The notes under the pieces are model-generated. The model did not search any database, was not told the origin of the DNA, and saw only the letters and a program-made list of their open reading frames with translations. The translations under genes and the position numbers were made by a program. DNA of 58,008 nucleotides from Rhodoferax sp. GTDB lineage: Bacteria; Pseudomonadota; Gammaproteobacteria; Burkholderiales; Burkholderiaceae_C. This document shows, piece after piece, positions 22,777-50,067 of the stretch. The stretch spans positions 1 to 58,008 of the forward strand of contig NZ_JANXUQ010000203.1 in assembly GCF_025356155.1 (NCBI RefSeq). The letters run 5' to 3'. The first letter of the stretch is position 1; each line of letters starts with the position of its first letter.

Positions 22777-22825
22777 TGCAGCTCGTAACCTGACTGATCA
22801 GGTATACGTCAAGCTAGCACTTCGA

Positions 22826-28806: not shown

Positions 28807-28817
28807 CACTTTTCCGT

Positions 28818-29708: not shown

Positions 29709-30361
29709 CGCACAACCTCCGATGACAGCATGGGCGCTACGATGAAGTCTGGCCAATCGGTGTTGTCGGCGAACTTGACCTGAATTCTGACCAGCATGGG
29801 AAGGCGCACGTCCGATTCCCAACGGTCCAACCAACGCGGGGGCGCGCTTTCGCTCTCGCGACCGTAATAGGTCAGCCAAATATCCTCAACAGTATTGAGT
29901 TCGGTCGCGGCAAGCACCATCTCTTTCGCTTGCGCCAGCTCCGAAAAATCCTGCCCTCGGGGATTGAGCGGCAACTGTCTCCACACCACGCGTTTGCCAC
30001 TGTCCAGGTGTTCGAGCTCCACTGAAACAGCGTACAACCCCCCTGCCCCGACACGGCTGGGTAGCTGTGTAACAAAGCTGAGCTTGTTCCTCTCTCCCAA
30101 AAAAGCCATGCGCTGCCCGGGCGCCTGCTTCCAGCGGTAGGGATAGGTCAACGCAATTTCGCTGCGCAAGAAATTCTCCACCGACCGCACCGTATTGAGA
30201 CTATCCACTTGCTTTTGAACAGCATCCCAACTGCGCACACCAAGGCGCAATCCACCGAATAGCAACACCAGGATTAAGCCCAATAGCGTGATGGAAATGA
30301 GCAATTCCAGCAAGGTAAAACCCAACTGAGGCCGACTGACCCCATGCGCGTGCCGGGTCAT
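29705..30361 (-). CDS. gspJ: Type II secretion minor pseudopilin GspJ
   Basis: A 218-residue pseudopilin. The prepilin cleavage site is PQLG before FTLLELLISITLLG, with Glu+5 present. The globular domain has the expected GspJ pattern (GGLRLGVRSWDAVQKQ). It joins the tip complex with GspK and GspI. It overlaps gspK and gspI by ATGA each. Confidence 0.94.
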   Translation of the reverse strand: MTRHAHGVSRPQLGFTLLELLISITLLGLILVLLFGGLRLGVRSWDAVQKQVDSLNTVRSVENFLRSEIALTYPYRWKQAPGQRMAFLGERNKLSFVTQLPSRVGAGGLYAVSVELEHLDSGKRVVWRQLPLNPRGQDFSELAQAKEMVLAATELNTVEDIWLTYYGRESESAPPRWLDRWESDVRLPMLVRIQVKFADNTDWPDFIVAPMLSSEVVR

Positions 30362-30750
30362 TGCACAGGCCCCAATCTCAATGAAGCCAATTCGACTTGA
30401 CGCTCCCGTCCATCCTCACTCCAACCCACCCAGGCCCGGACCTCATACAGACGGGTCGGCATCGTTTGCCGGTCGGTCACGCCGTCGTCCTCTACCGCAG
30501 CAATCCGCACCCGCCAGCGAAGGTCGGCACTAACTTGCCCCGCCGTTTCCCCTGGCACAAGTGGCTGCTCGATACCCGCTGCAGCGAGTCTTGATTCTGC
30601 TAGAAACACTGCGCGGCTATAACCACTCGCCAGCCGCGCATTGCGCATTCCGCCGGAGAATATTTGCATCAGAACCGCCATTGTCAAAGAGAGGATGACA
30701 AAGGCTACCAACACCTCGATCAGGGTCATACCCCGGGAATTGCTGCGCAT
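30358..30750 (-). CDS. gspI: Type II secretion minor pseudopilin GspI
   Basis: About 130 residues with the prepilin site SRG before MTLIEVLVAFVILSLTMAVL (Glu+5 present). ATG 30750 comes 2 bases after the gspH stop; a TTG at 30756 overlapping the gspH stop is also possible and would add two residues. Tip pseudopilin. Confidence 0.92.
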   Translation of the reverse strand: MRSNSRGMTLIEVLVAFVILSLTMAVLMQIFSGGMRNARLASGYSRAVFLAESRLAAAGIEQPLVPGETAGQVSADLRWRVRIAAVEDDGVTDRQTMPTRLYEVRAWVGWSEDGRERQVELASLRLGPVQ

Positions 30751-30752
30751 GG

Positions 30753-31217
30753 TCAATCGAGAATGACGACTTGGCCAGTCAGCCAGTTGATATCGACGTC
30801 GTATTTGCGGTCACGCGCAGTCACCGTGATGCGTCCGCCTGTGGACCCTCCGTCCGAAAAGAACCGCACCGCCCCAGCATTGCCATTGACAAGTTCAGAC
30901 TGGGCAGTGAAAAGCTGAATCGCAACACTCTTGGGCAAACGATAGACCCGTTGGTCACCCGTTAATTGAAATTGATGTGCGTCAAGGTCTACCAACAATA
31001 CTGACTCGCGCCGATGGGCTATCGCCTCGCTACGCGCCTTACGCAAGCCAGCCGCCAATTGGCGCGCCGATGCCTTGAGCTCGGTGCCGGACACTCCAGA
31101 GGAGATCATGGGGGCCGCCAAGGTGTACGCCATCGCCATGATGACCAACACCACTAGGAGCTCGATTAAGGTAAACCCAGCCTGATTGGCCGGATTTATT
31201 TTTTGCTGTCTTCCCAA
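30753..31217 (-). CDS. gspH: Type II secretion minor pseudopilin GspH
   Basis: A 154-residue pseudopilin. The prepilin site is QAG before FTLIELLVVLVIMAMAY (Glu+5 present). No ATG is available; the start is probably TTG at 31217, with a 22-bp overlap into gspG. The C-terminal domain has the GspH beta fold (SVAIQLFTAQSELVNG). Minor component of the pseudopilus. Confidence 0.9.
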   Translation of the reverse strand: MGRQQKINPANQAGFTLIELLVVLVIMAMAYTLAAPMISSGVSGTELKASARQLAAGLRKARSEAIAHRRESVLLVDLDAHQFQLTGDQRVYRLPKSVAIQLFTAQSELVNGNAGAVRFFSDGGSTGGRITVTARDRKYDVDINWLTGQVVILD

Positions 31218-31642
31218 CCGTTGATGTCCTTGTTCTCGCCGTCGCCGCCTTCTTTATTGTCGAGGCCCAACGAGCTAATGTCATATGCCCCGTGCTGGCC
31301 CGGGGAAACGTAGCGATAGTCGTTGCCCCATGGGTCTTTGGGTACGGTTTTTTTCTTATTGATGTAAGAGCCGTTCCAACCCGTCAAGCCAGGAGGCTGC
31401 TGCACCAAAGCCTGCAGACCTTCCTGGGTCGTTGGATAGCGCCCGGTATCCAGCTTAAACAAATCAAGACTGGATCCAAACTCTTCGGTCTGCAATCTGG
31501 CGGTGTCGGACTTTGCGCCACCCAAATAACCAATGATTTTTGGCCCCGCAACGCTGGCCAACAGCCCCAAAATGACCAACACCACCAATAACTCGATCAG
31601 AGTAAAGCCCCGTTGGCGCCGACCCGATTGCTTACTTTCCAT
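31196..31642 (-). CDS. gspG: Type II secretion major pseudopilin GspG
   Basis: From ATG 31642 (148 residues), prepilin site QRG before FTLIELLVVLVILGLLA (Glu+5). The C-terminal loop (DPWGNDYRYVSPGQHGAYD, then GWEDSKK) is the calcium-binding region of GspG. A direct repeat of M-E-S-K-Q at the N-terminus arises from a duplicated gagagtaaacag-like start; TTG 31657 is a second possible start. It is the main shaft of the pseudopilus. Confidence 0.96.
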   Translation of the reverse strand: MESKQSGRRQRGFTLIELLVVLVILGLLASVAGPKIIGYLGGAKSDTARLQTEEFGSSLDLFKLDTGRYPTTQEGLQALVQQPPGLTGWNGSYINKKKTVPKDPWGNDYRYVSPGQHGAYDISSLGLDNKEGGDGENKDINGWEDSKK

Positions 31643-31678
31643 CTGTTTACTCTCCAATAGTCAATTGTGTGATTGGCT

Positions 31679-32899
31679 TCACATTGCCAGGTCGTTCACG
31701 CTCAAGATCGCCACCAGGATAGACATGATGATGCCGCCGATGACCAAACCGAGCCCCAGAATCAGCACGGGCTCCATGAGCGCCAGCATGCGTTTAACAG
31801 CGCTATGCACTTCGCGGTCGTAGATGTCGGCAATGCGGATCAGCATCTCCTGCAATTTACCGGTTTCCTCCCCAACCATGACCAAGTGTACCGCCAGCTT
31901 GGGAAACAGCCCGATTTCCATGAGGGGCTTGGCCAGACCTTTACCTTCCTTTAACTGAGCGGCAACGGCACTTAAGCCCTCGGACATCACGGTATTGCTC
32001 AGCGTTTCCTTGACGATGGATAGCGCAGTTAGCAAGGTTACGCCATTGCCCAAAAGCGTGCCCAGCGTACGGGAAAAGCGCGCGACCTCCAATTTGGCGA
32101 CTAAATCACCCACCAGAGGCAGGCCTAGCAACCGTGCATCCCAGCGATAACGGCTGGCGGGCTCCCGCATTTGCCGTGAAAACCAGGAATACACCCCAAC
32201 GGCAGCTAAAACCACAGCCCACCAGTAATTGCGAACAAAGTCGCCGGCGGCGATCACGATCTGGGTAGGCAGTGGCAATGCCTTGCCCGACTCTTCGAAC
32301 ATTTGGGAAAATTGGGGCACCACCCACATCAGCAAGACGGCCACAGACAGCACGGCGACACCGACCAAAATGGCAGGGTAGATGAGCGCGGATTTGACGG
32401 TTTCCTTCAGCTCGCGCGAGCGCTCCATGAATTCGTTCAAACGCTGGAGCACAACATCCAGCGCGCCTCCGGCCTCGCCCGCCCGGATCATATTCAAGTA
32501 AAACCGGGAGAAGACTTCGGGATGCGCTTCCATGGCTTTTGACAAGGCCGCACCGCCGCGCACCTCTTCGCGCATCTCGGTCATCAACGCACGCACAAGC
32601 TCGTTTGCAGAAAGACCAATCAATATCTCCAAGCAGCGATCCAGTGGCAACCCAGCCTTCAGCAGCGTTGCCAACTCTTGTGTGAATACGGCGACATCGT
32701 CTTGGGAGACGCTCTTTTTTCCGAACAGACTCAGTCCACGGGAGGAAGCCTCCGCTCTGCTGGCTGTTTCTTCGACCCGAATCGGGATCAAGGCCATGGC
32801 CTGAAGTCGTTCTAATACAGCGGCCTGCGACGGCCCCTCCATATCGCCTTCCTGTGTTTCACCAGTGGGCGCAACGGCCTTATAGCGGTACAGCGGCAA
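31679..32899 (-). CDS. gspF: Type II secretion inner-membrane platform protein GspF
   Basis: A 406-residue protein with two GspF domains (~70-190 and ~270-400) and three hydrophobic segments (one ending in PQFSQMFEESG). The start is TTG at 32899, with gagga upstream. It forms the membrane platform that links GspE to the pseudopilus. It begins 2 bp after the gspE stop. Confidence 0.95.
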   Translation of the reverse strand: MPLYRYKAVAPTGETQEGDMEGPSQAAVLERLQAMALIPIRVEETASRAEASSRGLSLFGKKSVSQDDVAVFTQELATLLKAGLPLDRCLEILIGLSANELVRALMTEMREEVRGGAALSKAMEAHPEVFSRFYLNMIRAGEAGGALDVVLQRLNEFMERSRELKETVKSALIYPAILVGVAVLSVAVLLMWVVPQFSQMFEESGKALPLPTQIVIAAGDFVRNYWWAVVLAAVGVYSWFSRQMREPASRYRWDARLLGLPLVGDLVAKLEVARFSRTLGTLLGNGVTLLTALSIVKETLSNTVMSEGLSAVAAQLKEGKGLAKPLMEIGLFPKLAVHLVMVGEETGKLQEMLIRIADIYDREVHSAVKRMLALMEPVLILGLGLVIGGIIMSILVAILSVNDLAM

Positions 32900-32901
32900 G
32901 G

Positions 32902-34584
32902 CTACTCCTCGCGCGTGACGCGCAAGACTTCTTCAATAGTGGTCACGCCCGCCACCGCCTTGGAAAGTCCGTTTTCATACATGGTCTGCATGCCTTCAGC
33001 AATGGCCTGTTGGCGAACTTCACCAGATGTCACATGCCGCATGACCATGCCGCGAATGGTGTCTGACATGACCAGCAACTCGACGATGCTGACCCGCCCG
33101 GCATAGCCGGTGTTTCCGCACTCGGCACATCCAACGGGCCGGTACAGCACGACTGGTGTGGCGCTCGTGTAGCGCTGCAGTTGCATTTCTTCCACCACCT
33201 CTGGCAAGGCCGGATATGCCTCGCGGCAGTGCAGGCACAAGGTACGAACCAAGCGCTGGGCAAGGATTCCGTTGACGGTGGACGTGAGCAAGTAATCGTC
33301 CATGCCCATGTCGAGCAAGCGATTGATCGTGCTTGCCGCATCGTTGGTGTGCAAAGTGGATAGCACCATATGCCCTGTCAACGCGGACTGCACGGCAATT
33401 TGCGCAGTTTCGAGATCGCGGATTTCTCCGATCATGATCACGTCCGGGTCTTGGCGCACGATGGACCGCAGCGCATTGGCAAAGGTTAGACCGATCTGTG
33501 GCTTGACCTGGATCTGGTTGATACCCTCCATCTGATATTCCACCGGGTCTTCGACGGTAAGGATTTTGATGTCCGGGTTGTTGAGCCTATCCAGCGCGGT
33601 GTACAACGTAGTGGTTTTGCCCGAACCCGTGGGGCCAGTGACCAGCACGATGCCGTGGGGCTGCATCAACACCTTTTGAAATTTCTCCAGCACCGCAGGA
33701 TCAAACCCAAGGGTTTTGAAATCAAGAGAGGTACTGCTCTTGTCAAGAATACGCATTACCACGCTCTCCCCGTGCATAGTGGGCACGGTGGATACACGCA
33801 GGTCAATCTCTTTGCCCTGCATACGCAGCTTGATACGGCCATCCTGCGGCAACCGCCGCTCGGCAATGTCGAGGCTGGCCATGATCTTGATGCGGGATAT
33901 GACCGCAGCTGAAAACCGCCGCGGGGGAGACTCCACCTCGTGCATAACGCCATCCACCCGATACCGCACGATCAACCGGTTCTCGAAAGGCTCAATGTGG
34001 ATGTCGGAAGCACGCGCCTCCAAGGCATGGCTAATGATCAGGCTAACCAAGCGGATGATGGGCGCCTCGGATGCCAGCTCTTTGAGTTGCTGCAGGTCCT
34101 CACTCTCGCCGTCACCATCACGCGTTTCGACTTCGCCAACAATCTGGTCCATGGAGGTCTTGCCAGAGCCATACAGGCGCTCGAAGGCGACCTCTAATTC
34201 AGACGGAACCGCCAAACGCGCAACCACCTTGCGGTGGGTTACCAAACGGAAGGCGTTGACAACATATTCGTCCGTCGGGTCAACCATCGCCAGCACGAGC
34301 TTCTCCTCATCCTCATGCAGGGGCAATGACTTGGATTCTCTGATGAACCGTATGGTGACGCGCTCTTCCAGCACGGGCAACTCCGGGTAATCTGTGGCGG
34401 CAACGATCGGCAGACTGAGCTGAATGGCTAGCGCCTCAATGACATCGCGCTCGGCGGTCATGCCAGAGCGGATCAAAATTGCGCCAATACGCTCTCGCCT
34501 GTCCGTATCTTGAACACGCAGCGCCCGCTCCAGATTGGCGAGATCGAGTTTGCCGCGCTCAATTAAAATTTCCCCCAGACGCAT
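32902..34584 (-). CDS. gspE: Type II secretion ATPase GspE
   Basis: A 560-residue ATPase from ATG 34584 (GTG 34596 would add four residues). Walker A GPTGSGKTTTLYTAL, Asp box LTVEDPVEYQMEGI, Walker B VIMIGEIRDLETA and His box LSTLHTNDA. The tetracysteine zinc site (CLHC and CAEC) is present, as in GspE and not PilT. The N-terminal N1E region is short but present. It leads the leftward E-F-G-H-I-J-K-L-M-C-D operon. No prepilin peptidase gene is present in the window. Confidence 0.96.
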   Translation of the reverse strand: MRLGEILIERGKLDLANLERALRVQDTDRRERIGAILIRSGMTAERDVIEALAIQLSLPIVAATDYPELPVLEERVTIRFIRESKSLPLHEDEEKLVLAMVDPTDEYVVNAFRLVTHRKVVARLAVPSELEVAFERLYGSGKTSMDQIVGEVETRDGDGESEDLQQLKELASEAPIIRLVSLIISHALEARASDIHIEPFENRLIVRYRVDGVMHEVESPPRRFSAAVISRIKIMASLDIAERRLPQDGRIKLRMQGKEIDLRVSTVPTMHGESVVMRILDKSSTSLDFKTLGFDPAVLEKFQKVLMQPHGIVLVTGPTGSGKTTTLYTALDRLNNPDIKILTVEDPVEYQMEGINQIQVKPQIGLTFANALRSIVRQDPDVIMIGEIRDLETAQIAVQSALTGHMVLSTLHTNDAASTINRLLDMGMDDYLLTSTVNGILAQRLVRTLCLHCREAYPALPEVVEEMQLQRYTSATPVVLYRPVGCAECGNTGYAGRVSIVELLVMSDTIRGMVMRHVTSGEVRQQAIAEGMQTMYENGLSKAVAGVTTIEEVLRVTREE

Positions 34585-34660
34585 TTTGAAAACCACGGCT
34601 TTCTCTGACGAAAAGCCCTGACTATATCAGTCGGCCCCAAACCTTGGGACCGGCGGTTGC

Positions 34661-34674: not shown

Positions 34675-35027
34675 AAATGCTATTCTCGACGACCCCGGTG
34701 TACTGCACGGTCATTACACGTGCGAAAGTTGAGATCAGAAAACCGGATGAATGCTCTATGGCGCGAGGTATGTAATTGATGCAAAAACAACCCGCACATC
34801 TTAAGGCAGAAATCAAAATTGAAGGCGCTCGCATATTGGTGCTCGCACTTTACCCAGAAACGGCGGTATTCGGATGTTGTGGCGCAATCTTGCGCCATGT
34901 GGCAGCGGGAGATGCATTGCACGTCGTCGTCGCGTCGGGTGGAAGCGGATCGCTTAATAGACGGCCACCCTACGGGAGAGCGCGAACTCCTGACCTTGCC
35001 CCTGGAATCCGTATCCCATAGCTGAGA

Positions 35028-35924
35028 TCATGAGTTGACTTGCTTGGGTTGATTTGCAAGCCAGCTTTCTTCAAACTGCATTGGACTGACGTAGGCCAGT
35101 GTCGAATGCAGCCGAGTGCGGTTATACCAGAGTATCCAGGCGATGACCTCATCCTTGGCCTGACGCCTGCTCTGGAACTTCTGCCCATACAGACGTTCCA
35201 CTTTCAATGATCCAAACAACGTCTCGCTACAAGCGTTGTCCCAGCAGTTGCCGCGCCGACTCATAGAGCTGGTGATGCCGTACTCCTTGAGCATGTCCCG
35301 AAAGTCTTTGCTCGCGTATTGGCTGCCTCTGTCACTGTGAAACATCAACCCAGCCTGCTTGCTCGGGTGCCGCTTGAACCACGCAATGCGCAAGGCGTCA
35401 ATGACGATGTCGCGTGTCATGTCGTCTCGCAACGACCAGCCCACCACTTGGCGGCTGAACAGGTCAATCACCACGGCCAGAAGCAGCCAGCCTTCGTCGG
35501 TTGCGATGTACGTGACATCACCCACCCAGACTTTGTCAGGCTGTGCAACGGTGAACTCCCGGTTGAGCAAGTTGGCAGAGATTGGTAGGTCGTGGTTGCT
35601 GTCGGTGGTTACCTTGAAACGACGTTTCCCCTTGGCACGAATGCCATGCAGCTTCATGAGCTTTTGCACGCGTTCTTTGCCTACTCGGATGCCGCGAGCT
35701 AGCAGTTCCTTCCAAATGCGTGGCCAGCCGTAGCCACCGCGCGTTTCGGTGTAAATAGCCTTGATGTGCACCAGCAATGCATCGTCGCTCAGATGGCGGC
35801 GCTGGGCAGCGTCGGCCAGGCGCACAAAGTGCTCGTGGTACCCGGCAACGCTGACACCCAGAACACGGCATTGCACAGAGATCGGCCACACGCTGCGGTG
35901 GCGTTGGATAAAGGCGTACTTCAA
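35028..35924 (-). CDS. IS3-family transposase OrfB
   Basis: A 298-residue DDE integrase. The catalytic motifs are visible: WVGDVTYIAT (first D), MFHSDRGSQYAS (second D) and SRRGNCWDNACSETLFGSLK (E). It is preceded by the IS3 HTH_21-type region (RGGYGWPRIWKELLARG). It starts at TTG 35924, overlapping the OrfA stop by 4 bases, and is likely expressed as an OrfAB fusion by frameshifting or by coupling. Full length. Confidence 0.95.
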   Translation of the reverse strand: MKYAFIQRHRSVWPISVQCRVLGVSVAGYHEHFVRLADAAQRRHLSDDALLVHIKAIYTETRGGYGWPRIWKELLARGIRVGKERVQKLMKLHGIRAKGKRRFKVTTDSNHDLPISANLLNREFTVAQPDKVWVGDVTYIATDEGWLLLAVVIDLFSRQVVGWSLRDDMTRDIVIDALRIAWFKRHPSKQAGLMFHSDRGSQYASKDFRDMLKEYGITSSMSRRGNCWDNACSETLFGSLKVERLYGQKFQSRRQAKDEVIAWILWYNRTRLHSTLAYVSPMQFEESWLANQPKQVNS

Positions 35925-36217: not shown

Positions 36218-36603
36218 TTCCGTTCTCCTTGCTTGAATTTAACCACTCAGCAAGGGATACGTTTTTCGGGGGCAAGGTCACTCCTGCGCCAAGAGGCTTG
36301 CAACGCAGCTTTGTTTTTGGGTCACGAAGAGCCAGGGTTTTGGGGCTTAACCGGCGGGCACTTGGAGTATGGGGAGTTTCTAATACGAAAGATCCAAGCT
36401 GCAATCGAGAGCTTTAACTGCGATCTTGTTTATGCTCCCTCGATCTTCGAGTCGCTGCCGGACAGTCGTTTACCGGGGATGGCGGAACTGGAGGCAGTAA
36501 GGCGCCAGGCAAATGCAACTGCATTGGCCATGTAGGAAACAGAGGCGCCCATGATGCAGCCTAACCTGTTGCTGGATATAAGCGATTTGCAGGCGCGCAA
36601 GCA

Positions 36604-37321: not shown

Positions 37322-40300
37322 GTGCCCCGTACACCAATACTGAAGACTTCCCAATTGATTTCCAATCCAAATACCCCATTGCCGAACCCGGCCGTACTAT
37401 GCTCGGGGGTAAAACTAGCGCCGTTGGTATCTATATTGATACGCAGTATGGACCGGGGCAGCCTACCTGATGCACTAACTTCAGTCGGCGCGCAAACGTA
37501 CCAATCCATTGAAGTAATACTAGTGAACGCAAAGGGAGTTGGACACAAAGATTTCCAACAGTGGCAATCACGTTTTCCCATTCGATTTGTCAATTCGTCA
37601 ACAAGGCTCGATCGGAGTGCAGCTGCAAATCGCGCGCTTGAGAATGCAAACGGCGATTACCTAATATTTCTGGACGACGATGACTTCATTGACTCTTGTC
37701 ATATAGAGTCCCTGGTCAATGCATTGCTTAACTCTCCAAACTGCAAGGCGGCTTATTCTGGAACGAGAGTCACCGACGCCACAGGGACAACGTTGGGAGT
37801 CTATGACCATTCATTTTCTTCCATGCAACTATTGGTGGGAAACTATTTACCGATCCATGCAGTGCTTTTCAGCCGAGATCTCGTTTCTGCGGGATGCCGC
37901 TTTGACTCAACGCTTGAGACATACGAAGATTGGGATTTTTGGCTACAGGTATCGCGCCACACGTCTTTCGTAAAAACGGGGAAAGTCAGCGCGGCGTATC
38001 GTCCCTTTTTGGGGGATTCTGGCATGTCCAAAACCGAAGATCGACCGCTTCAAAGGCAAAGACGTTCTGTGGTCTGGCAAAAGTGGTGGCGTTCCTGGAA
38101 AGTAGAAACGTTGGATCTACTGGCAGTCGGTCTGGAAGAACGACTAGAGAAGAAAGAAAGTGAAAACATCGCGCTGACAAGCGAGTTTGCTCTTCAGCAC
38201 CATAGCAATGCGAAGCTTGCTGAAGAAAACGCGCAACGTACCCATGAACTGGTCAACTTACAGACGGCCATTTACAGGGAAGAGTGCAAGGTTGTCAATC
38301 TCAATCAAACAATAGCAGAAATACACGCAGCCTTGACCCACAAAGTGGCTGTTTTGGAGATTCAGCAGCAGCAGATTGACATATTGAATAAAAACATCGC
38401 GCTGACAAGCGAGTTTGCTCTTCAGCACCATAGCAATGCGAAGCTTGATGAAGAAAACGCGCAACGTACCCATGAACTGGCCAACTTACAGACGACCCTC
38501 AACAAGGAAGAGTGCAAAGTTGTCAATCTCAATCAAACAATAGCAAAAATACACACAGCCTTGACCCAAAAAGAGGCTGTTTTAGAGATTCAGCAGCAGC
38601 AGATTGACATGTTGAATACGCAGCTCCGAGAAATCCTGACTTCGAGCAGTTGGCGGATGAGTGCACCGATTCGCCGTATTGGCTCTGTTACAAAAGCTAC
38701 TCGTCGAAAGATAAGAGCTGTTGGATTACTTATCAGTTCAACTTGGAGCGACCTTCGGCGGGAGTCGCTAACCAAGCAGTTGCAAAAAGCATATGAATTC
38801 ATGCGGCATGAGGGTTGGGCGGGTGTCAAGCTGTTATTGACCCATAAAACGCCAGAAGCCTCACACCCTGTTTCACACCCACGCTCCCCGGAGGTTATGG
38901 CATATGCCCTGGTACCGAGCTCCGCCTTAAAACCAGAACGCCACGGCTTTCAACTCCTGGACTCTATCGACTCAGATCAATACAACTATTTTTTTATTGA
39001 CGTATTTGATACAGCTGTAATCCGGCTGTTTGAAAAACCAGTAGACATATTCAAATACGTTGGATGTATTACGCACTCCTTCAATTTTGAAAAAAAGCGA
39101 ATTCAAAAGGAGCGTGATGCGCGCACATCAGGCAATGCACGCAAAGACATACGGTTAGTTGATATTTACAAAAATTTCTTAGCAGCCATTCCAGAAATTG
39201 AAATTGAGACCGAATTTAAATTCTGTATAGCGCATCCTGAGACCTATGCATTTTATAGAAAAATAATTGCGAAAGGCAAGAAAGTATATTTCGTTTCGGA
39301 TATGTATTTATCCAAAGATACACTGACTTCAATATTAAACAAAAATGGTTATACACAATATGAAGATATATACGTATCATCTGAAGATGATTATATAAAA
39401 GGTGATGGTAGCCGATTTTTATGGCTCCAGAAAAAACATCCTGACTCTGTTGATGCAGCCATTCACATAGGTGATAACCATATATCCGACTGGGTACAGC
39501 CAATAAAGAACGGGTACAGTGCTTTCAAATTTACACAGAGCATTGAATTTTATGAGCACGATGATTTTATTTTTACAAAAACCCCACATTTACTAGCCCA
39601 CAATAGTCTTGGAACATCCTTTATTCTGGGAATGTTTAGATACTGGAAAGCCAGCTACCTTGATAAATCACCAGGATACTGGAAGCAATTTGGATTTTTG
39701 TATGGGGGAGCACTCGTTTCCGCTTTTTGTGGTTTCTTGAATCAAAGAATCCGAACAGCTGGACTATCAACATCAAGAATATTTTTCCTGGCCCGAGATG
39801 GCGAAATCATGGAGAAAGTATATAAATTACTCTTCCCTGAACATGAGGCCGCATACCTGCTGGCTTCTAGGCGCTGCATGAGTTTTCCTTCCCTGACCGA
39901 GTCAAATTTGACCGACGATAACGAGACACTTAAGTTATTCACAACCCCAATAGGCATTGCTGACGCCAATGACTTGATGGACAGGTTTGGATACGAAGAT
40001 TTGCATGAATTAAAAACTGCATTTGACGAACTCGAATCTGGTCAACGGCTTCATTCGGAATCTGATATCTTAAAATCCATTATTGACAATAAAGATTCAA
40101 TTTTATCGAAAGCAAACTCAGAACGCCAAATGCTGATGGGCTATTTGGAATCCATGCATTTTTTTGAAGACTCAGATATTGTTATTGCCGACGTGGGTTG
40201 GGGTGGAAGCATTCAGAATGCCCTGGCCAAACTGCTTACTCAAGCCGAAAAGTTTGACAATCGACTCCATGGAATGTACCTCGGCGTAGGTGACAACGCT

Positions 40301-40717
40301 TCCCACAAAGAGCAAAAAACTGGGTTCCTGTTTCAGGGAAACAATTCAGCATTTATTGATTTTCTAAACCTTATTGAACTAATTACCTCCTCGCCAAGTG
40401 ATAGCGTTATGAGGGTAACGAAGGTTGATGAACAATATATTCCGGTCAGTCCGGATAAAAACTCGGATGAGCTCAATAGACAGTCGATTTCCAAGGATAT
40501 TCAATCTGGTATTTTGGAATTCGCTGAAATTCTTAAAGCAAGAAACATCGGAAACCTGGATTTCCTGCAACCCGATGACTTTACTGTATTGTTTGAATCC
40601 CTACAATTACACCCTTCAGAAGAAGATGTTCGTCAATTGGAAGGCGTAAAGCACGCAATGACTTTAGGTAACAATTTTGCACAGAATGTGCTGTACCAAA
40701 AAAAAATAACAATATGA
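37322..40717 (+). CDS. Giant fusion: GT2 glycosyltransferase, tandem coiled coil, HAD domain, C-terminal polysaccharide domain
   Basis: A 1131-residue protein. Residues ~30-250 form a GT-A/GT2 domain with LIFLDDDDFID as the metal site and YEDWDFWLQ. Residues ~275-440 form a coiled coil built from two near-identical 76-residue units, encoded by a 228-bp tandem duplication (38163-38390 and 38391-38618). About 550-725 is a HAD-superfamily hydrolase core (FFIDVFDTAVIR, KVYFVSDMYLSKD, IHIGDNHISD). From ~815 on, FFLARDGEIMEKVY, LASRRCMSF and VGWGGSIQNALAKL match a C-terminal domain found with HAD in other polysaccharide proteins. The GTG start is uncertain. AT content rises sharply after ~38900, suggesting transfer. 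It overlaps the next gene by ATGA. Confidence 0.82.
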   Translation: MPRTPILKTSQLISNPNTPLPNPAVLCSGVKLAPLVSILIRSMDRGSLPDALTSVGAQTYQSIEVILVNAKGVGHKDFQQWQSRFPIRFVNSSTRLDRSAAANRALENANGDYLIFLDDDDFIDSCHIESLVNALLNSPNCKAAYSGTRVTDATGTTLGVYDHSFSSMQLLVGNYLPIHAVLFSRDLVSAGCRFDSTLETYEDWDFWLQVSRHTSFVKTGKVSAAYRPFLGDSGMSKTEDRPLQRQRRSVVWQKWWRSWKVETLDLLAVGLEERLEKKESENIALTSEFALQHHSNAKLAEENAQRTHELVNLQTAIYREECKVVNLNQTIAEIHAALTHKVAVLEIQQQQIDILNKNIALTSEFALQHHSNAKLDEENAQRTHELANLQTTLNKEECKVVNLNQTIAKIHTALTQKEAVLEIQQQQIDMLNTQLREILTSSSWRMSAPIRRIGSVTKATRRKIRAVGLLISSTWSDLRRESLTKQLQKAYEFMRHEGWAGVKLLLTHKTPEASHPVSHPRSPEVMAYALVPSSALKPERHGFQLLDSIDSDQYNYFFIDVFDTAVIRLFEKPVDIFKYVGCITHSFNFEKKRIQKERDARTSGNARKDIRLVDIYKNFLAAIPEIEIETEFKFCIAHPETYAFYRKIIAKGKKVYFVSDMYLSKDTLTSILNKNGYTQYEDIYVSSEDDYIKGDGSRFLWLQKKHPDSVDAAIHIGDNHISDWVQPIKNGYSAFKFTQSIEFYEHDDFIFTKTPHLLAHNSLGTSFILGMFRYWKASYLDKSPGYWKQFGFLYGGALVSAFCGFLNQRIRTAGLSTSRIFFLARDGEIMEKVYKLLFPEHEAAYLLASRRCMSFPSLTESNLTDDNETLKLFTTPIGIADANDLMDRFGYEDLHELKTAFDELESGQRLHSESDILKSIIDNKDSILSKANSERQMLMGYLESMHFFEDSDIVIADVGWGGSIQNALAKLLTQAEKFDNRLHGMYLGVGDNASHKEQKTGFLFQGNNSAFIDFLNLIELITSSPSDSVMRVTKVDEQYIPVSPDKNSDELNRQSISKDIQSGILEFAEILKARNIGNLDFLQPDDFTVLFESLQLHPSEEDVRQLEGVKHAMTLGNNFAQNVLYQKKITI
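38163..38618 (+). repeat. 228-bp tandem duplication encoding the coiled coil
   Basis: Two adjacent units (38163-38390, 38391-38618) of 228 bp each, differing at a small number of positions. Each encodes 76 residues (N-I-A-L-T-S-E-F-A-L...Q-Q-Q-Q-I-D). The near identity of the DNA argues for a recent duplication. Confidence 0.9.
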
Positions 40718-41526
40718 CAACAATAAAAATTATTGCCGTTGTAATAAATCCAGAAATGTATGACAGATTCTTTTCTAAAAATCCTGCTCTCGAAGGTTGC
40801 GATCTCATTTCAGTTGACAATCGAACGTTAAATCGAGGCCTTCCAGTTATTTACAATGAACTTATTGCTCGTTATCTTAGTGAAGATTGTTGGCTGTTAT
40901 TTGTGCACGAAGACTTTGAAATAAAATCTAGTCTGTCTATTGTGAACGAACTGGATTCAAGACATATATATGGAACATTTGGACTTAATTTTGAAAATAA
41001 CTCGCCGGTCCCCTATGGACGACACGTCTGCAGCAACAAGGATGGGAGCAGAGCAGTAGAGGTGGGTCATAGCATCTCCCAACCTGTCGCCGTTCAGACT
41101 CTGGATTGCCAGAGCGTCTTGGTTCATACTCAACTACTGCGTAATAACCCTGGACTGCGTTTTGATGAAAACCTTACCTTCGATCTCTATGCGGAGGACT
41201 TGTGCATCTATGCTAAATATATGCTGGGTATTACCTCCAAAGTTTTCCCTCTAATATTTCAGCACTACTCTCACGGGAATCTAACTGATCGATACCATTC
41301 TGGATTACTTTACTTGGCAAAGAAATATCCTAATGTCGCAGTTGCCGGGAGCTGTTCATTCATCGGAGGCAGATCTTCAGAGCTTGAGAAATATTTTGTA
41401 TATGGTGTTGGCCAAGTTCAAAATATACACAGTACTTCCATTGTCAAACCAAAAATGACCCGTTGCAAGATCCGCATAAAACACCTTGCAGCCAAGCTAT
41501 TTTCAAAAATACGATCGCGAAACTAA
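40714..41526 (+). CDS. StrF-like glycosyltransferase
   Basis: A 270-residue protein resembling the GT-A-like StrF family found in polysaccharide clusters. Motifs in order: [60 protein letters not shown]. The acidic VHEDFE and FDLYAEDL positions correspond to the metal/donor site and the family D-L motif. The donor is unknown. ATG at 40714 overlaps the fusion gene stop by 4 bases, so the two are co-translated. AT-rich like its partner. The next feature is an IS remnant beginning near the stop codon. Confidence 0.75.
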
Positions 41527-42369: not shown

Positions 42370-43368
42370 ATGACCCAGCAGCCCGCCATTGCTACACACA
42401 CTAAACCAACCATGGTCACCGTCATCATCGTTAACTTCAATGGCGGCGACATGATTTGCCAGTGCCTCGGCGCGCTGCAACGGCAAAGCTTTCAGGACTT
42501 TATAGCGGTGGTGGTGGACAACAACAGTTCCGACGGGTCGGTGGCATCCATCCGCCTACAGCACCCCGAGGCGGTCATTCTGGCTTTGAATGCCAACGCG
42601 GGGTTCGCGAGTGGTGTAAACCATGCCCTGCGCACGCGTACACAAAGCCCGTTAGTGGCGCTGTTAAATCCTGATGCATTTCCGGCTGCGCATTGGCTGG
42701 AAAGCCTGGTGACAGCGGCAGATGCACACCCGGAGTTTGCGGCCTTCGGCTCCAGGATGTACAGCGATGATGCCCAATTGCTCCTGGATGGCGTCGGTGA
42801 CGCGTACCATGTTAGCGGCCTGCCCTGGCGCCAGGGACATGGTTACTCCAATGGCACGCAACATGACCGCGAGCGAGAGATCTTCGCCCCGTGCGCCGCT
42901 GCGGCCCTGTACCGACTGGATGCGCTTCAGTCCGTTGGGCTGTTGGACGAGGATTTCTTTCTCTATGTAGAAGATGTAGACCTGGGTTTCAGGTTACGAC
43001 TGGCGGGCTACCGGGCGCTGTATGTACCCCAGGCGGGTATCCAACATGTAGGCTCGGCGTTTGTCGGGCGCAACAGCGACTTTCAGGTTTATCACGGGCA
43101 TCGCAACCTGGTGTGGGTCTTCGTCAAAAATATGCCGGGCATTCTGTTTTGGCTTTTCCTGCCGCTGCACATTGCGCTTAACCTAGTGACGCTGGCATGG
43201 TTCAGCCTGCGCGGCAAGGGCCAAGTGGTACTACGCGCCAAACACGATGCAGTCCGGGGAATTCCGCGATATTGGGCTAAGCGAAAGTCTGTGCAGGGTC
43301 AACGCAAGACCAGTGTGTGGGCCATCCTGCGCCAACTGAGTTGGAACCCCTTTACTCGTTTCGAATGA
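42370..43368 (+). CDS. Family 2 glycosyltransferase (WbbL/rhamnosyltransferase-like)
   Basis: A 332-residue GT2 enzyme. VTVIIVNFNGGDM, VVVDNNSSDGSVAS, VALLNPDAFP and the WbbL-like FFLYVEDVDLGFRLRLAGY are all visible. The C-terminal hydrophobic stretch (~265-295, FWLFLPLHIALNLVTLAWF) suggests membrane association. ATG 42370 lacks a clear ribosome site; ATG 42412 is an alternative. It starts the second polysaccharide block; its neighbours run the other way. Confidence 0.92.
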   Translation: MTQQPAIATHTKPTMVTVIIVNFNGGDMICQCLGALQRQSFQDFIAVVVDNNSSDGSVASIRLQHPEAVILALNANAGFASGVNHALRTRTQSPLVALLNPDAFPAAHWLESLVTAADAHPEFAAFGSRMYSDDAQLLLDGVGDAYHVSGLPWRQGHGYSNGTQHDREREIFAPCAAAALYRLDALQSVGLLDEDFFLYVEDVDLGFRLRLAGYRALYVPQAGIQHVGSAFVGRNSDFQVYHGHRNLVWVFVKNMPGILFWLFLPLHIALNLVTLAWFSLRGKGQVVLRAKHDAVRGIPRYWAKRKSVQGQRKTSVWAILRQLSWNPFTRFE

Positions 43369-43375: not shown

Positions 43376-44146
43376 CTATTTGCGGCCACACACGATGGCA
43401 AGCAAATTCAAGGCCATGGCCTGCACCGCGGGGAACAAACTCCCCGTGCGGGTAGGCTCCACCCAAAAGGCCTCTGCCACCCGGCCCCTGCCAAGGTACA
43501 GCCCGCGGTAGATGTTCAACCCGTCCACCGCGCGTTCGTAATCACCACAGACCATGGCCGTGGCATGCTCAGCCAGCGCCAGCCGCTTGGTAGCAACCTG
43601 GTCGGTAATATCCACGACATGGGTGGCCGGTACCGGTGCCCACACTTCGTAAAACAAGAGTTGCTCCACACTGGCGGAACGGCGGCACAGCGGCTCCAGA
43701 AATGCCGCGATGCGGACATGGTCGCGGTGGTAGTCCAACGGAGACGGGAGAATGACCCAGTCGGGCTGGTAATCGGCGAGCAATTTCTCGATCTGTCGTT
43801 TCAAGTCCGGACTGGAAACAAATGCGCCATCCGGTTGGTTGAGCTGCAGCGAATCCGTAACACCCAGACGGGCCAGGGCGCGCACAAATTCACCCTGCCG
43901 CACCGCTCCTGCACCTTCCGGCAACCCTCCAGCGCCGCTGCCGTCGGTCACCAACACAACCTTGACCGGGCACAACGGCGCCAAACGCGCCAAAGTGCCA
44001 CCACAACCCAGCGTTTCATCGTCAGGGTGTGGCACAAAGACCAGCACCTTGCGCGCTTGCGTCAAGTCCAGCGCCTGCGGCAAAGGGCATGGCTCAAGCC
44101 CCGCCAACTGTTTGCGGATACGCCTATGGGTTAAAAAGCTGAACAT
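43376..44146 (-). CDS. PIG-L family deacetylase
   Basis: A 256-residue LmbE/PIG-L deacetylase. The metal-binding motif VPHPDDETLGCGG (H40, D42, D43 by ATG 44146) and the downstream DYHRDHVRIA are intact. It removes an N-acetyl group from a sugar or sugar conjugate. The ATG at 44146 overlaps the upstream glycosyltransferase gene by 23 bases. It is the working counterpart of the broken PIG-L at 34776. Confidence 0.93.
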   Translation of the reverse strand: MFSFLTHRRIRKQLAGLEPCPLPQALDLTQARKVLVFVPHPDDETLGCGGTLARLAPLCPVKVVLVTDGSGAGGLPEGAGAVRQGEFVRALARLGVTDSLQLNQPDGAFVSSPDLKRQIEKLLADYQPDWVILPSPLDYHRDHVRIAAFLEPLCRRSASVEQLLFYEVWAPVPATHVVDITDQVATKRLALAEHATAMVCGDYERAVDGLNIYRGLYLGRGRVAEAFWVEPTRTGSLFPAVQAMALNLLAIVCGRK

Positions 44147-45308
44147 ATTGCTCCACGACCGATGCCAGATTCGGCGCATGCAGGGCTTGCGCCGCAGCGC
44201 GCTGCGACAGCGCCTGCCGTTGCGCAGGATTGCCAATCAATTCTTCCAACGCGGCCACTAAAACACCTAGGTCAACTGGGATTAACCGGGCGCCATTACC
44301 CATGACTTCGGGCACACCGCCCACTGCGGTGCAGATGCAGGGCAGCCCGGCAATGAGCGCCTCGAAATTGGCAAGCCCAAATGACTCGGTGACCGAGGTA
44401 CTAGCGTACACATCGGCCGCAGCATAGTACGGCCACACATCGTCCACCGTCGCAAAATGGATGCGCCCGCCAAAGCCAGCCGCATCGGCCAATTGCTGCA
44501 TGCCAGGTCGATCGCCATCTCCCAGCAAATGCAAATGCAGCGATGGGTAGCGTTGGCCCAAGCTGGCGCAAGCCACCACCAACATATCGAAGCGTTTGAG
44601 CGGCACCAGACGCCCCACACCCAGCACATGCATGTCATTCGGCGACCACCCCAATTTTTGGCAAGCAACCTGGCGGTTCAGCGGCACCATGACAGGCGCA
44701 GCATGGCTAATAGCGTGCCAATGGGTGGGGTTGAACGGCAGGGCCAGATCCCGCGCCAACTGGTCCAAGGCCAGCTGAGTGGGCGCCGTAACCCAGTCGG
44801 CCGCGCGCAGTACAAAGGCCTCAAGACGGCGCAGCCAGCGCTGCAAACGCGGGCCTTGTACCAGCCCATCTTCATGGGTGGCACGGCTGTAGCAACCAAA
44901 TCCATGCTCCGTAATACCCCAGCGCACATCGCGTAAACGCAAGCGCTTCTTCCCTAGCCAAAAACCAAGGCCTAGCCATGGGTCATGCAAGTGGACAACG
45001 GTATAACCCTCGTCCCGCGCCGTGTGGGCTGCAAACCAGCCCATCTGCACACGCTCGGCCAACGCGCCCAGAACATGCTGCACATGAGGGCGGCCTGCAA
45101 CACCGGGCAACCGGTGCACACGCGCGAGCCAGCGATTGCGCGCGTCTTTGGCGGTGGAGGCCAAATCTTCTTGGCACAAGTAGCGCATACGCCAATTCTT
45201 GTCTGCCAACGCATCAACCACCGGCATCAGGCTACGGCCCAGACCATACCGCCGGTCACCGGACATCTCCCGGGTCACCATCAGGACATTGCGGCCATGC
45301 TCTGTCAT
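44124..45308 (-). CDS. Family 4 glycosyltransferase
   Basis: A 394-residue GT-B protein. The N-terminal half has the receptor-side fold (HLHDPWLGLGFWLG), and the C-terminal half has the GT4 signature LGVGRLVPLKRFDMLVVA and the EX7E motif in TESFGLANFEALIAGLP. It probably adds a sugar to the repeat unit. It overlaps the PIG-L start by 23 bases; 40 bp separate it from wzt upstream. Confidence 0.93.
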   Translation of the reverse strand: MTEHGRNVLMVTREMSGDRRYGLGRSLMPVVDALADKNWRMRYLCQEDLASTAKDARNRWLARVHRLPGVAGRPHVQHVLGALAERVQMGWFAAHTARDEGYTVVHLHDPWLGLGFWLGKKRLRLRDVRWGITEHGFGCYSRATHEDGLVQGPRLQRWLRRLEAFVLRAADWVTAPTQLALDQLARDLALPFNPTHWHAISHAAPVMVPLNRQVACQKLGWSPNDMHVLGVGRLVPLKRFDMLVVACASLGQRYPSLHLHLLGDGDRPGMQQLADAAGFGGRIHFATVDDVWPYYAAADVYASTSVTESFGLANFEALIAGLPCICTAVGGVPEVMGNGARLIPVDLGVLVAALEELIGNPAQRQALSQRAAAQALHAPNLASVVEQYVQLFNP

Positions 45309-45348: not shown

Positions 45349-46599
45349 TCAAGCCTCGGCCGGGTTCAGCGGCTCACCGGTCGCTGTTGCGCCGGCTGTG
45401 CTGTGCCAGCCGCGCGCTAGGGAAACCACGCCCTGCTCCAGTGTCTTTTGGCTGAAATGCAGGGTTGCGACATTGGCAGCGCTGTCGTAAATGTGGATGC
45501 CGTCCTCACTCAGCAAGTAGACACCTATGTAGTACTCGCCTTTGAGCAAAGGGATTCGGGGGAATTCGATCGTCGCTGTACCCCGCCCGGGCGCATCTCG
45601 TGTCAACTCCAGCCCATCCGCTTGTGTGCTGCTGCTGGTAATGGTGCGGCCGTCCGTCGAATGCAAAGTCACCGCCACCACCGGTGACGGCAAAGCCGGG
45701 TCTGAGGCAAAGCCCACCGCGATAGCCAGGGTCTGTTGCGAGCTATGGATGTGCAGTGAAGTCCCCGCTACTCCGTCCGCCCGTGTCTGCACACCCAGAA
45801 TACGGGCTTGGCCCACCACCGACGGAACGTGGGCAGCGGGCTCTGCACTCTGCGGCGCAGCATCACGGTCCAGAAAATTCTGGTACCGCGCCACAACGGT
45901 CGAAGGGTCGCCGATCAGCCGGACGACACCCTTCTCCAGCCAGATTGCCCGCGTGCACAGAGCCTCAATCTGGTAGATCGAATGCGAACAAAACAGTATG
46001 GTCGCGCCTTTTTCCTTCAGGCGCATGATGCGGTCAAACGATTTGCGCGCAAAGGCACCATCGCCCACCGACAAGGCCTCGTCAATGACCAGAATGTCGG
46101 GGTCCACACTGGTTGCGATGGAAAACGCCAGCCGCACATACATGCCGCTGGAGTAAGTCTTGACCGGCTGGTGGATGAAGTCGGCAATGCCGGAAAACTC
46201 GACAATGGCGTCGTAACGCGAGTCGATCTCTGATTTGCTCAGGCCCAGGATGGAGGCATTGAGGTAAATGTTTTCCCGGCCAGTGAACTCGGGATTGAAG
46301 CCCGCACCCAGTTCCAGCAATGCGGCGATGCGTCCGTGTACGGTCACTTGGCCTGCGCTTGGCGACAGCGTCCCACAAATCAATTGCAGTAGCGTGGATT
46401 TGCCGGCGCCGTTACGACCCACCAGACCCAGCACTTCACCTTTTTTCAACTCAAAATTAACGTCGTGCAGCGCTGCAAACTCTTTGTAATACCGGCGCCG
46501 GCCACGCATCAGCATTTGCTTCAAGCGGTCGATGGGCCGGTCATACAACTGAAAGGCTTTACCCAGACTCTGGGCATGGATGGCTAGGCTAGAGGACAT
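45349..46599 (-). CDS. wzt: Polysaccharide ABC exporter ATPase Wzt with C-terminal carbohydrate-binding domain
   Basis: A 416-residue ATPase from ATG 46599. Walker A (VGRNGAGKSTLLQLI), signature YSSGMYVRLAFSIA and Walker B (ILVIDEALSVGDGAF) lie in the first ~235 residues. Residues ~260-416 form a beta-sandwich like the Wzt C-terminal domain (TSLHIHSSQQTLAIAVGF, EYYIGVYLLSEDGIHIYDS). In O9a-type systems this domain recognises the capped glycan terminus. Together with wzm it exports an undecaprenyl-linked polymer across the inner membrane. It overlaps wzm by 11 bases. Confidence 0.93.
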   Translation of the reverse strand: MSSSLAIHAQSLGKAFQLYDRPIDRLKQMLMRGRRRYYKEFAALHDVNFELKKGEVLGLVGRNGAGKSTLLQLICGTLSPSAGQVTVHGRIAALLELGAGFNPEFTGRENIYLNASILGLSKSEIDSRYDAIVEFSGIADFIHQPVKTYSSGMYVRLAFSIATSVDPDILVIDEALSVGDGAFARKSFDRIMRLKEKGATILFCSHSIYQIEALCTRAIWLEKGVVRLIGDPSTVVARYQNFLDRDAAPQSAEPAAHVPSVVGQARILGVQTRADGVAGTSLHIHSSQQTLAIAVGFASDPALPSPVVAVTLHSTDGRTITSSSTQADGLELTRDAPGRGTATIEFPRIPLLKGEYYIGVYLLSEDGIHIYDSAANVATLHFSQKTLEQGVVSLARGWHSTAGATATGEPLNPAEA

Positions 46600-47437
46600 C
46601 GGCAAAGCCTTTGCGCGTCAACTGGAAGAAAGTGCCGGCCGCCGCTGCGAACAAAGAGGCAACCGCAGCATAGATGCCCAGTGCAGCCCAGTCGGGCCAC
46701 TGGCCCAGCAGCAATACGGCACGCACCTGCTCAATGATCAGGGTCAAAGGGTTCAAGCCCATCCAGAATTGCAAATCTGCGTTGAGCGACTTCACTGAAT
46801 AGAAGACCGGTGACATGAACATGGTCAGGCTCACAACCATGCTCATCACCTGCCCCACATCGCGCACAAAAACACCAATGGCGGACAAGAACCAACCCAG
46901 GCCCAAGAGTACCGGCAAAAACGCCAAAAGTACCGCGGGTAAAGCGAACGCAGTGACGGGTAGGCCCTCGCGGGCGATCATCAGCACCAGTAGCAAGGTT
47001 GCACAGCTGATCAACAAATGGAACAGGCCCGACAGTACAGTAACCCAGGTCAGCAGCTCAATCGGGAAAATAATCTTTTTCACCAGATTCGACTGGTCGA
47101 CGATCAGGTTTGGCGACTTGCTGGCCACTTCGGCAAACAAATTGAACACGAGGAGCCCGGCAAAAACCTGCAATGCAAACTCCACCCCGCCCCCTGTGGC
47201 CGAACCCGGCCAGCTTTGCCGGAAGACGCCCACAAAAACGAACGAATAGACCCCAAGCATCAACAATGGGGTTAAAAAGGACCAGGTAAGCCCCAACAGC
47301 GAGCCGCGGTAACGGCCCAATACATCGCGTTTGGCAAACTGCCAAAGCAAGGAACGGTTGTGGAATGGAATATAGGAGCGTTGCAGGCGTGTCACACCCC
47401 ATAGTTTAACGGTGCAGCTCGCGGCGGCCCAATCCAT
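46589..47437 (-). CDS. wzm: Polysaccharide ABC exporter permease Wzm
   Basis: A 282-residue ABC-2-type permease with six hydrophobic segments. RDVLGRYRGSLLGLTWSFLTP is the family's hallmark N-terminal region, and GLNPLTLIIEQVRA the conserved C-terminal one. ATG 47437 is used; GTG 47395 is an alternative. It forms the membrane half of the exporter with Wzt. It is the first of this leftward set (wzm-wzt-GT4-PIG-L). Confidence 0.92.
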   Translation of the reverse strand: MDWAAASCTVKLWGVTRLQRSYIPFHNRSLLWQFAKRDVLGRYRGSLLGLTWSFLTPLLMLGVYSFVFVGVFRQSWPGSATGGGVEFALQVFAGLLVFNLFAEVASKSPNLIVDQSNLVKKIIFPIELLTWVTVLSGLFHLLISCATLLLVLMIAREGLPVTAFALPAVLLAFLPVLLGLGWFLSAIGVFVRDVGQVMSMVVSLTMFMSPVFYSVKSLNADLQFWMGLNPLTLIIEQVRAVLLLGQWPDWAALGIYAAVASLFAAAAGTFFQLTRKGFADVL

Positions 47438-49379: not shown

Positions 49380-49392
49380 GTACCCGCCCACC

Positions 49393-50067
49393 ATGGTCAA
49401 GAAAGCTCCCCGCCGCACCGCAGAACGCATTCTGGAAGTCACGCTGGAGCTGTTCAACCGCTTTGGCGAACCCAATGTCTCCACCACGTTGATTTCGGCC
49501 GAGCTGGGCATCAGCCCGGGCAACCTGTACTACCACTACCCGGCCAAGGACGAGCTGATCAACTCGCTGTTTGACCGCTACGAAAAAGCGCTCAACGAAC
49601 TACTCAACGCCAGCGACAGCGTGCGCGATGTGGAAGACGCCTGGTTCTTCATGCACACGCTGTTCGAGCTGATTTGGCAGTACCGCTTTTTGTACCGCGA
49701 TCTGAACGACCTGCTGAGCAAGAACCGTCGGCTGGAGACGCATTTCCAGTGGGTGCTGAAGAACAAGACCCGCTCAGTGCGCGCCATGCTCGACAGCATG
49801 AACCGCTCCGGTGCCATGCACATCGACTCCCGCGAGATGGAACCCACAGCCACCAGCATGGTGGTCGTACTCACCTACTGGCTGAGCTTTGAGTATGTGA
49901 AAGATCCGCGCAATGCGCTGGAACCTGAAAGCGCCCAAGCCGCCCTGCTGCGCGGCGCCCACCATGTGCTAAATCTGCTGATTCCCTACATGGAAGCCGG
50001 CCAACGCACCCATTTATTGAAGCTTGTAGGTGCTTACACCACTGCCCCCGGCGCCCAAGCCGCATAA
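49393..50067 (+). CDS. TetR family transcriptional regulator
   Basis: A 224-residue regulator. N-terminal TetR helix-turn-helix (residues ~10-55; TAERILEVTLELFNRFG, then LISAELGISPGNLYYHYPAK) and a ligand-binding C-terminal half. It starts 13 bp after the patatin gene, so it may be co-transcribed and control the phasin/patatin set or the TPR gene downstream. No operator was identified. Confidence 0.93.
   Translation: MVKKAPRRTAERILEVTLELFNRFGEPNVSTTLISAELGISPGNLYYHYPAKDELINSLFDRYEKALNELLNASDSVRDVEDAWFFMHTLFELIWQYRFLYRDLNDLLSKNRRLETHFQWVLKNKTRSVRAMLDSMNRSGAMHIDSREMEPTATSMVVVLTYWLSFEYVKDPRNALEPESAQAALLRGAHHVLNLLIPYMEAGQRTHLLKLVGAYTTAPGAQAA

Follow-up and report, generated by a model that had tools for sequence, protein, structure and literature searches.

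A GT2-coil-ribofuranosyltransferase fusion in Rhodoferax sp. as a candidate chain terminator and length ruler for an exported polysaccharide

In a stretch of 58,008 nucleotides from Rhodoferax sp. (contig NZ_JANXUQ010000203.1 of assembly GCF_025356155.1; the whole stretch is called the window in the following), an open frame with a GTG start at 37322..40717 on the forward strand encodes a protein of 1131 amino acids. According to domain searches and a predicted model, it joins a GT2 glycosyltransferase, a coil, a HAD-type phosphoribose phosphatase (PRP) and a glycan phosphoribosyltransferase (gPRT) dependent on phosphoribosyl pyrophosphate (PRPP). A layout of four parts in one 1131-residue protein (glycosyltransferase, coil, HAD core and C-terminal domain) had been put forward in an earlier note on this DNA and was confirmed. 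We read the fusion, with moderate confidence, as a chain terminator, a ruler and a ribofuranose (Ribf) polymerase for a polysaccharide exported by an ATP-binding cassette (ABC) transporter. Based on homology and on the retained catalytic residues, PRP-gPRT would transfer ribofuranose 5-phosphate from PRPP onto the growing chain and then remove the phosphate, probably in alternation with a 270-residue transferase encoded by the adjoining gene, and this extension would take place at the membrane. The GT2, placed at the distal tip of the coil, would cap only those chains that are long enough to reach it and would thereby end their growth. A de-N-acetylase of the PIG-L type, fused in relatives but separate in the window, would de-N-acetylate the capping sugar, and the cap-binding domain of the exporter ATPase Wzt would recognise the resulting cap, which is perhaps an amino sugar.

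The C-terminal half matches a ribofuranosyltransferase

The two C-terminal domains, PRP (residues 547-780; 38960..39661) and gPRT (residues 786-1131; 39677..40714), which like all parts of the fusion lie on the forward strand, were assigned by homology, profile and Foldseek. With the window sequence alone, phmmer matched the ribofuranosyltransferase 7SHG over both domains (E 5.6e-16), and an 18-sequence profile, in which the window was included, matched Bcs3 (E 8.7e-76) and 7SHG (E 1.6e-73) over nearly the whole length. Foldseek on the predicted model returned Bcs3 or 7SHG chains at all of ranks 1-8. In alignments, D560, S659, K693, GDN 717-719 and D723 are kept in the phosphatase, and R825, D826, S849, R850 and D957 in the transferase. 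The HAD signature found comprises only the first Asp of motif I, followed by Ser, Lys and GDNxxSD, and the accessible parts of two papers describe this single Asp as a feature of the Bcs3-type PRP (PMC10299916, PMC11127046). The Bcs3 residues R679, D680, S707, R708 and E818, representing the split acidic pair and the phosphate loops, all have counterparts in the window; D826 aligns with D680, and D957 with E818, the second equivalence being counted by hand.

Since the HAD and the C-terminal domain match one ribofuranosyltransferase and the catalytic residues are kept, both are best read as one extending enzyme. Judged by these matches, PRP-gPRT is a two-step, PRPP-dependent ribofuranosyltransferase and would thus be a polymerase module rather than a modifier. 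The C-terminal domain that the earlier note had described as common in polysaccharide proteins is present and corresponds to the phosphoribosyltransferase half of ribofuranosyltransferases (profile, Foldseek). The HAD core named there was not recognised by the Pfam HAD models in the fusion itself (best 14.4 bits, cut-off 27) but was established via relatives and solved structures, the PF00702 cut-off being passed by three relatives of the fusion. As a stand-alone modifier, the HAD domain was ruled out by the match of both domains to a ribofuranosyltransferase.

The GT2 domain in the position of a terminator

The GT2 domain spans residues 33-260 (37418..38101), as determined by PF00535 (residues 47-139, E 8.9e-13), by PDB 9jma (E 3.3e-13) and by the model, and is a putative chain-terminating transferase. 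According to the accessible text of PMC11231755, the terminator in Klebsiella systems lies distal to the coil, with the polymerase modules at the opposite end, and coil proteins are a marker of capped, ABC-exported assembly. In the window, the GT2 occupies the terminator position of such terminator-coil-polymerase proteins. The suggestion that the GT2 is the synthase of the fusion is given up on the same ground. The earlier idea of the coil as a chain-length ruler is partly supported, by the match of the layout to terminator-coil-polymerase proteins and by the coil being the most length-variable part of the family, but the roles that it assigned to the domains were wrong.

The terminator reading is supported by an exchange of the N-terminal slot before related C-terminal halves. 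In Nitrosomonas mobilis (locus L083), PIG-L-GT2-coil precedes a C-terminal half that is 51% identical to that of the window, and in Methylomicrobium (L084) a methyltransferase and a coil precede a half that is likewise 51% identical. Locus L162 encodes PIG-L, GT2 and a short coil in a frame of their own, which has 569 residues and stops soon after the post-coil motif. A genome scan for relatives matched 182 loci, of which the best 80 were used for domain counts with six seed sequences, so that domains outside these seeds go unseen. Near-complete PRP-gPRT was found in 76 of the 80 loci, and at least 300 residues preceded it in 51 of the 76. The first seed-recognised domain of these 51 was RgpF in 16, PIG-L in 15, GT2 in 9, a methyltransferase in 5, a sulfotransferase in 3 and none in 3. 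Wzt (E<1e-40) was present in 28/51 loci with the long N-terminal part compared to 4/25 without it. Within the window fusion polypeptide no PIG-L was found, only broken relics upstream and a separate gene.

Five loci (L046, L047, L102, L108 and L113), three of them from Pseudomonas records and two (L046 and L102) on one contig, have their N-terminal slot, ahead of RgpF and PRP-gPRT, filled by a sulfotransferase, and no Wzm or Wzt matches were found near them. The genome of the window encodes a second protein of this kind, a GT2-coil-RgpF-PRP-gPRT of 1328 residues (contig C7, L044:2342-6328, reverse strand); on this 12-kb contig there was no Wzm or Wzt match.

Length variation of the coil

The coil spacer, delimited by spacer lengths, heptad register and the model, comprises residues 260-440 (181 residues; 38099..38641). 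Repeat comparison yielded two 76-residue units within it, unit 1 at residues 281-356 (38162..38389) and unit 2 at residues 357-432 (38390..38617). The tandem pair announced in the earlier note is present, but "near-identical" overstates the likeness, as 64/76 residues (84%) and 214/228 bases agree. The best heptad register is constant across most of each unit, and the hydrophobic periodicity over the whole coil is borderline (p 0.05). The predicted model (mean predicted local distance difference test score, pLDDT, of 73.6; predicted template modelling score of 0.55) shows helices at residues 261-363 and 373-439, with low to moderate confidence and with a break at residues 364-372 near the unit junction. 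The fold prediction proposed as a check therefore gave long helices, but as a monomer model it is no proof that the coiled coil is extended. The coil is followed by the motif SSSWRMSAPIRR (residues 441-452; 38642..38677), which is conserved in the family according to the alignment and would belong to a membrane-proximal helix.

A comparison of coil lengths across species, also proposed earlier, showed that the length varies. In 26 family proteins, 25 of them with GT2, the spacer ranges from 60 to 181 residues with a coefficient of variation (CV) of 25%, compared to a CV of 0.5% for GT2 (225-229 residues), 5.0% for PRP (214-256) and 1.2% for gPRT (321-335). The window coil is the longest of the 26. 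The orthologue in a genome of the same genus (G810) has a coil of 105 residues, and the 181 residues of the window equal 105 + 76. If fully helical, with a rise of 0.1485 nm per residue, the coils would be ~27 nm long in the window and ~16 nm in G810.

With Tandem Repeats Finder, 19 arrays were detected inside the coil DNA of 16 of the 26 genes, two in L133 and two in L044 covering the same bases, compared to a single array in the remaining 93% of that DNA. The repeated unit was 21 or 42 bases, corresponding to one or two heptads, in 14 of the 19 coil arrays; the coil DNA of the G810 gene, the 27th, contained no array. Among 11 disjoint nearest pairs, the coil length differed in 10, and in these 10 the GT2 length was equal. 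The difference was a multiple of 7 in six of the 10 (p 0.001), the other four differing by 22, 12, 25 and 3 residues. Restricted to pairs of at least 76% identity, a cut chosen after the list was seen, it was a multiple of 7 in 6/7 (p 5e-5). Over all unique coil lengths, the test for quantisation gave p 0.0016 for a period of 3.5 and p 0.04 for a period of 7, with seven periods tried. Altogether, tandem duplication, in many cases by whole heptads, appears to adjust the coil length, and the window would carry a duplication of 76 residues. In two close Nitrosomonas genomes (L094 and L105), the coils are 22 residues apart, which equals two 11-residue units and represents a hendecad and not a heptad step; the coil DNA of L094 contains a 33-base array.

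Exporter, cap-binding domain and PIG-L

The exporter consists of Wzt (45349..46605, reverse strand), an ATPase with a C-terminal cap-binding domain (Wzt_C, E 8.5e-11), and the ABC-2 permease Wzm (46589..47437, reverse strand), both identified by domain search. A Wzm/Wzt exporter with a glycan-recognising domain in Wzt had been expected and was found as such. The distance of "~6 kb" stated for it holds for the Wzt start codon (5.9 kb), but the Wzt gene, being on the strand opposite to the fusion, begins to be met after 4.6 kb. The exporter gene row further contains a GT4 glycosyltransferase (44124..45308, reverse strand; domain search), and a stand-alone PIG-L de-N-acetylase is encoded at 43376..44236 on the reverse strand (PF02585, E 2.1e-25). 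Its counterpart in L094 is a separate PIG-L beside a GT2-coil protein that has no PIG-L. Wzt lies near the fusion in the window as well as in L083 and L084.

A separate search for cap-binding domains like that of the window gave 24 positive genomes among 399 of the order and 7 among 61 of the genus, with that of the window included in both counts. Their surroundings were compared with those of other Wzts in stretches of up to ~20 kb around the Wzt, several of which ended at contig ends. The sample comprised 29 loci with a window-like domain (the window's excluded) together with the 50 highest-ranked control stretches, one place in the ranking being skipped; three of the 79 (L207, L210 and L233) had middling scores and were left out. 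PIG-L was found in 15/28 loci with a window-like domain and in 0/48 of the others (Fisher 1.3e-8, a value that overstates independence since many of the positives belong to one genus, Nitrosomonas). When stretches shorter than 10 kb (seven among the 28, three among the 48) were set aside, the proportions were 14/21 and 0/45. In a tree of the cap-binding domains, the PIG-L label needs 9 changes compared to 14.1 in shuffles. The window-type GT2 occurred in 12/28 loci with a window-like domain and in 1/48 others. This association of both PIG-L and GT2 with the window-like domain is consistent with a cap that GT2 and PIG-L make and Wzt recognises.

The cap-binding domain was ruled out as a strict marker of PIG-L caps, the association being strong but broken. 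Three loci with a window-like domain (L177, L179 and L192) showed neither PIG-L nor the window-type GT2 in the stretch examined. A search by sequence for a solved relative of the cap-binding domain gave none that was convincing. The genome of the window contains a second Wzt-like ATPase (contig C82:10435-11145, L216) with 61% identity in the nucleotide-binding domain, a C-terminal domain unlike that of the window and no PIG-L nearby.

Alternative explanations

Upstream of the fusion, two relics of PIG-L were found, an N-terminal part in which the catalytic motif is lost (34815..34964, forward strand; tblastn E 1.5e-9) and a central part with an in-frame stop (36287..36601, forward strand; tblastn E 3.7e-24; PF02585 below the cut-off, E 0.026), and between them a transposase with an rve integrase core (35028..35924, reverse strand; domain search). 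Two short frames at 36.6-37.3 kb gave no Pfam match; they may be IS91-type debris. The ancestor of the gene was probably a PIG-L-GT2-coil-PRP-gPRT protein, as found in L083. It could be argued that the insertions destroyed the PIG-L part and that the rest is a decaying remnant that happens to possess a GTG start and has hardly any function, if any. This would also account for the PRP domain, in which unique changes, counted at sites where the remaining orthologues agree, amount to 23/116 in the window compared to 10/103, 10/103 and 9/102 in the orthologues, about twice the rate, and for the two coil units, between which 12 of 14 changed codons alter the amino acid, giving no sign of constraint. 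However, 1131 codons are open, the catalytic positions are kept, and the 270-residue partner gene is retained. Moreover, the unique changes are not in excess in gPRT (19/148 compared to 18/147, 14/143 and 19/148) and hardly in GT2 (20/127 compared to 17/124 in G810). The G810 orthologue also begins at GT2 without PIG-L and yet has an open frame, so that a working protein can lack the PIG-L part. A decaying gene is accordingly regarded as improbable; selection may have relaxed to some extent, or the HAD half may be of foreign origin, and the GC content at third codon positions changes from 0.48 in GT2 to 0.33 in PRP.

A more serious competitor, although still rather unlikely in our view, is a plain multi-glycosyltransferase polymerase, in which GT2 and the Ribf transferase alternate, the coil serves only to oligomerise or tether them, and the length is set elsewhere. 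Bcs3 indeed joins several synthesising modules in one chain, as stated in the accessible parts of PMC10299916 and PMC11127046, the likeness of the window GT2 extends to chondroitin and heparosan synthase modules, coils can tolerate length changes without acting as rulers, and the G810 fusion is kept away from its Wzt. On the other hand, methyltransferases, enzymes unable to polymerise, are also found in the N-terminal slot, and PIG-L-GT2-coil exists as a protein of its own in L162; the association of PIG-L with one type of Wzt cap-binding domain and the heptad-step length changes also speak against such a polymerase. The version of the earlier note, with GT2 as the synthase and, across the coil from it, the HAD domain as a phosphatase that modifies or terminates the chain, can draw on the HAD nucleophile and motifs but is hardly credible, since the HAD and the C-terminal domain together match one two-step ribofuranosyltransferase over nearly the whole length and the phosphatase of this family serves chain extension, as described for Bcs3-type enzymes in the accessible parts of the same two papers.

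For the terminator, ruler and polymerase reading, a number of observations have to be set on the negative side. In G810, which is one contig, fusion and partner lie ~1.5 Mb from the Wzm/Wzt genes, and the 20-kb stretch around the fusion contains no Wzm or Wzt match; the same holds true for Wzt in the loci of three sulfotransferase-type proteins (L102, L108 and L113). Among the 28 loci with a window-like cap-binding domain, 13 showed no PIG-L in the stretch examined, and in L181, L185 and L188 a methyltransferase coil protein is present instead. Regarding the coil, the 76-residue unit is one residue short of eleven heptads, which shifts the register by one at the junction, and coil DNA can be repetitive in part because the amino-acid sequence of a coil is itself periodic. 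The putative membrane-proximal helix (residues 444-471) has a pLDDT below 50, although the S-SW-P-R motif after the coil is conserved. To these, the loss of the fused PIG-L and the excess of unique changes in PRP have to be added.

Neighbouring genes and mobility

The start of the partner gene (40714..41526, forward strand) overlaps the stop of the fusion. Its product is a putative GT-A-like transferase of 270 residues, assigned from orthologues and a low-confidence model (pLDDT 57.5) whose best fold match is UDP-bound majastridin; no Pfam match was obtained for it. An orthologue stands beside the fusion in 3/3 other orthologous loci (L083, L084 and L262). A rhamnosyltransferase-like GT2 gene follows at 42370..43368 on the forward strand (domain search). 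Upstream, positions 20900-34596 hold type II secretion genes (GspD, GspE, GspF) and an adjoining BNR-repeat protein, the end of the gspE-like gene being ~0.2 kb from a broken PIG-L relic. Downstream, positions 48132-50067 encode a patatin-like phospholipase and then a TetR-type regulator, a flank that is conserved in the same-genus genome G021.

The fusion module seems to move. In the same-genus genome G814, the place that the fusion takes in the window, with the type II secretion flank on one side and the exporter on the other, is occupied by a GT2-coil frame of 992 residues with a different C-terminal part that is GT2-like by a weak match. In G810, fusion and partner form an orphan pair (C1:4111652-4115523; L262:9653-13524), flanked by a GGDEF protein and, at a greater distance on the opposite side, by a purH-like gene, which looks like the result of a joint transfer.

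Implications

To our knowledge, few systems have been used to test how cells measure exported sugar chains, and in the main the coil lengths were engineered. A natural series would be offered by the Nitrosomonas relatives, whose coils comprise 60-116 residues between like enzymes, and by the pair of the window (181 coil residues) and G810 (105), in which the flanking domains are alike. If the ruler model is general, the chain length should rise with the coil length within each series. It is conceivable, and put forward here only tentatively, that the coil is a tunable ruler, whose repeats gain or lose heptads between close species and thereby retune the length of the O-polysaccharide, and that a new class of cap exists, in which a sugar added by GT2 is de-N-acetylated by PIG-L and recognised by Wzt. 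The caps named in the accessible literature are methyl, phosphate or methylphosphate, and Kdo, to which a GT2-plus-PIG-L cap, if true, would add an amino sugar. Among the matches listed in our literature search, which covered few subscription papers, there was no description of a PIG-L cap or of a terminator-coil-ribofuranosyltransferase fusion.

Comparison with known systems

Bcs3 of Haemophilus influenzae b (8A0C) and 7SHG of Thermobacillus composti resemble the window protein in combining a HAD phosphatase with a PRPP-dependent phosphoribosyltransferase in equal order and with equal motifs. Bcs3 differs in carrying a ribitol-phosphate transferase and, as far as the accessible parts of PMC10299916 and PMC11127046 describe it, no coil; its pathway has no chain-terminating residue according to the accessible text of PMC11231755.

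WbdD of E. coli O9a and Klebsiella O3 has an N-terminal cap enzyme, a coil and a membrane-proximal C-terminal region, and its product is exported by Wzm/Wzt with a cap-binding Wzt, all of which is also proposed for the window (accessible parts of PMC3482155 and PMC11231755). Contrary to the window, where the polymerase module is fused and the candidate cap would be made by GT2 and PIG-L, WbdD has a methyltransferase-kinase cap and a separate polymerase, WbdA. Closer in layout are WbbB (Klebsiella O12) and ORF6 (Klebsiella O7), in which terminator, coil and polymerase modules are joined in one polypeptide as proposed for the window, while the caps are Kdo or methylphosphate and the polymerase modules are other glycosyltransferases (PMC11231755, accessible text).

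Also comparable are the Nitrosomonas PIG-L-GT2-coil-RgpF-PRP-gPRT proteins found here, which are like the window in the kind of GT2, the coil, the post-coil motif and the Ribf transferase, and differ by the fused PIG-L and by an additional RgpF-type module that separates the coil from the Ribf transferase. Klebsiella O4 and O7 have the ribofuranosyltransferase as a protein of its own, whereas in the window it is fused behind the coil; the accessible text of the same 2024 paper (PMC11231755) states that nothing in the ribofuranosyltransferase structure precludes a fusion. The family described here would thus represent ribofuranosyltransferases fused behind a ruler, in contrast to the separate protein of O4 and O7.

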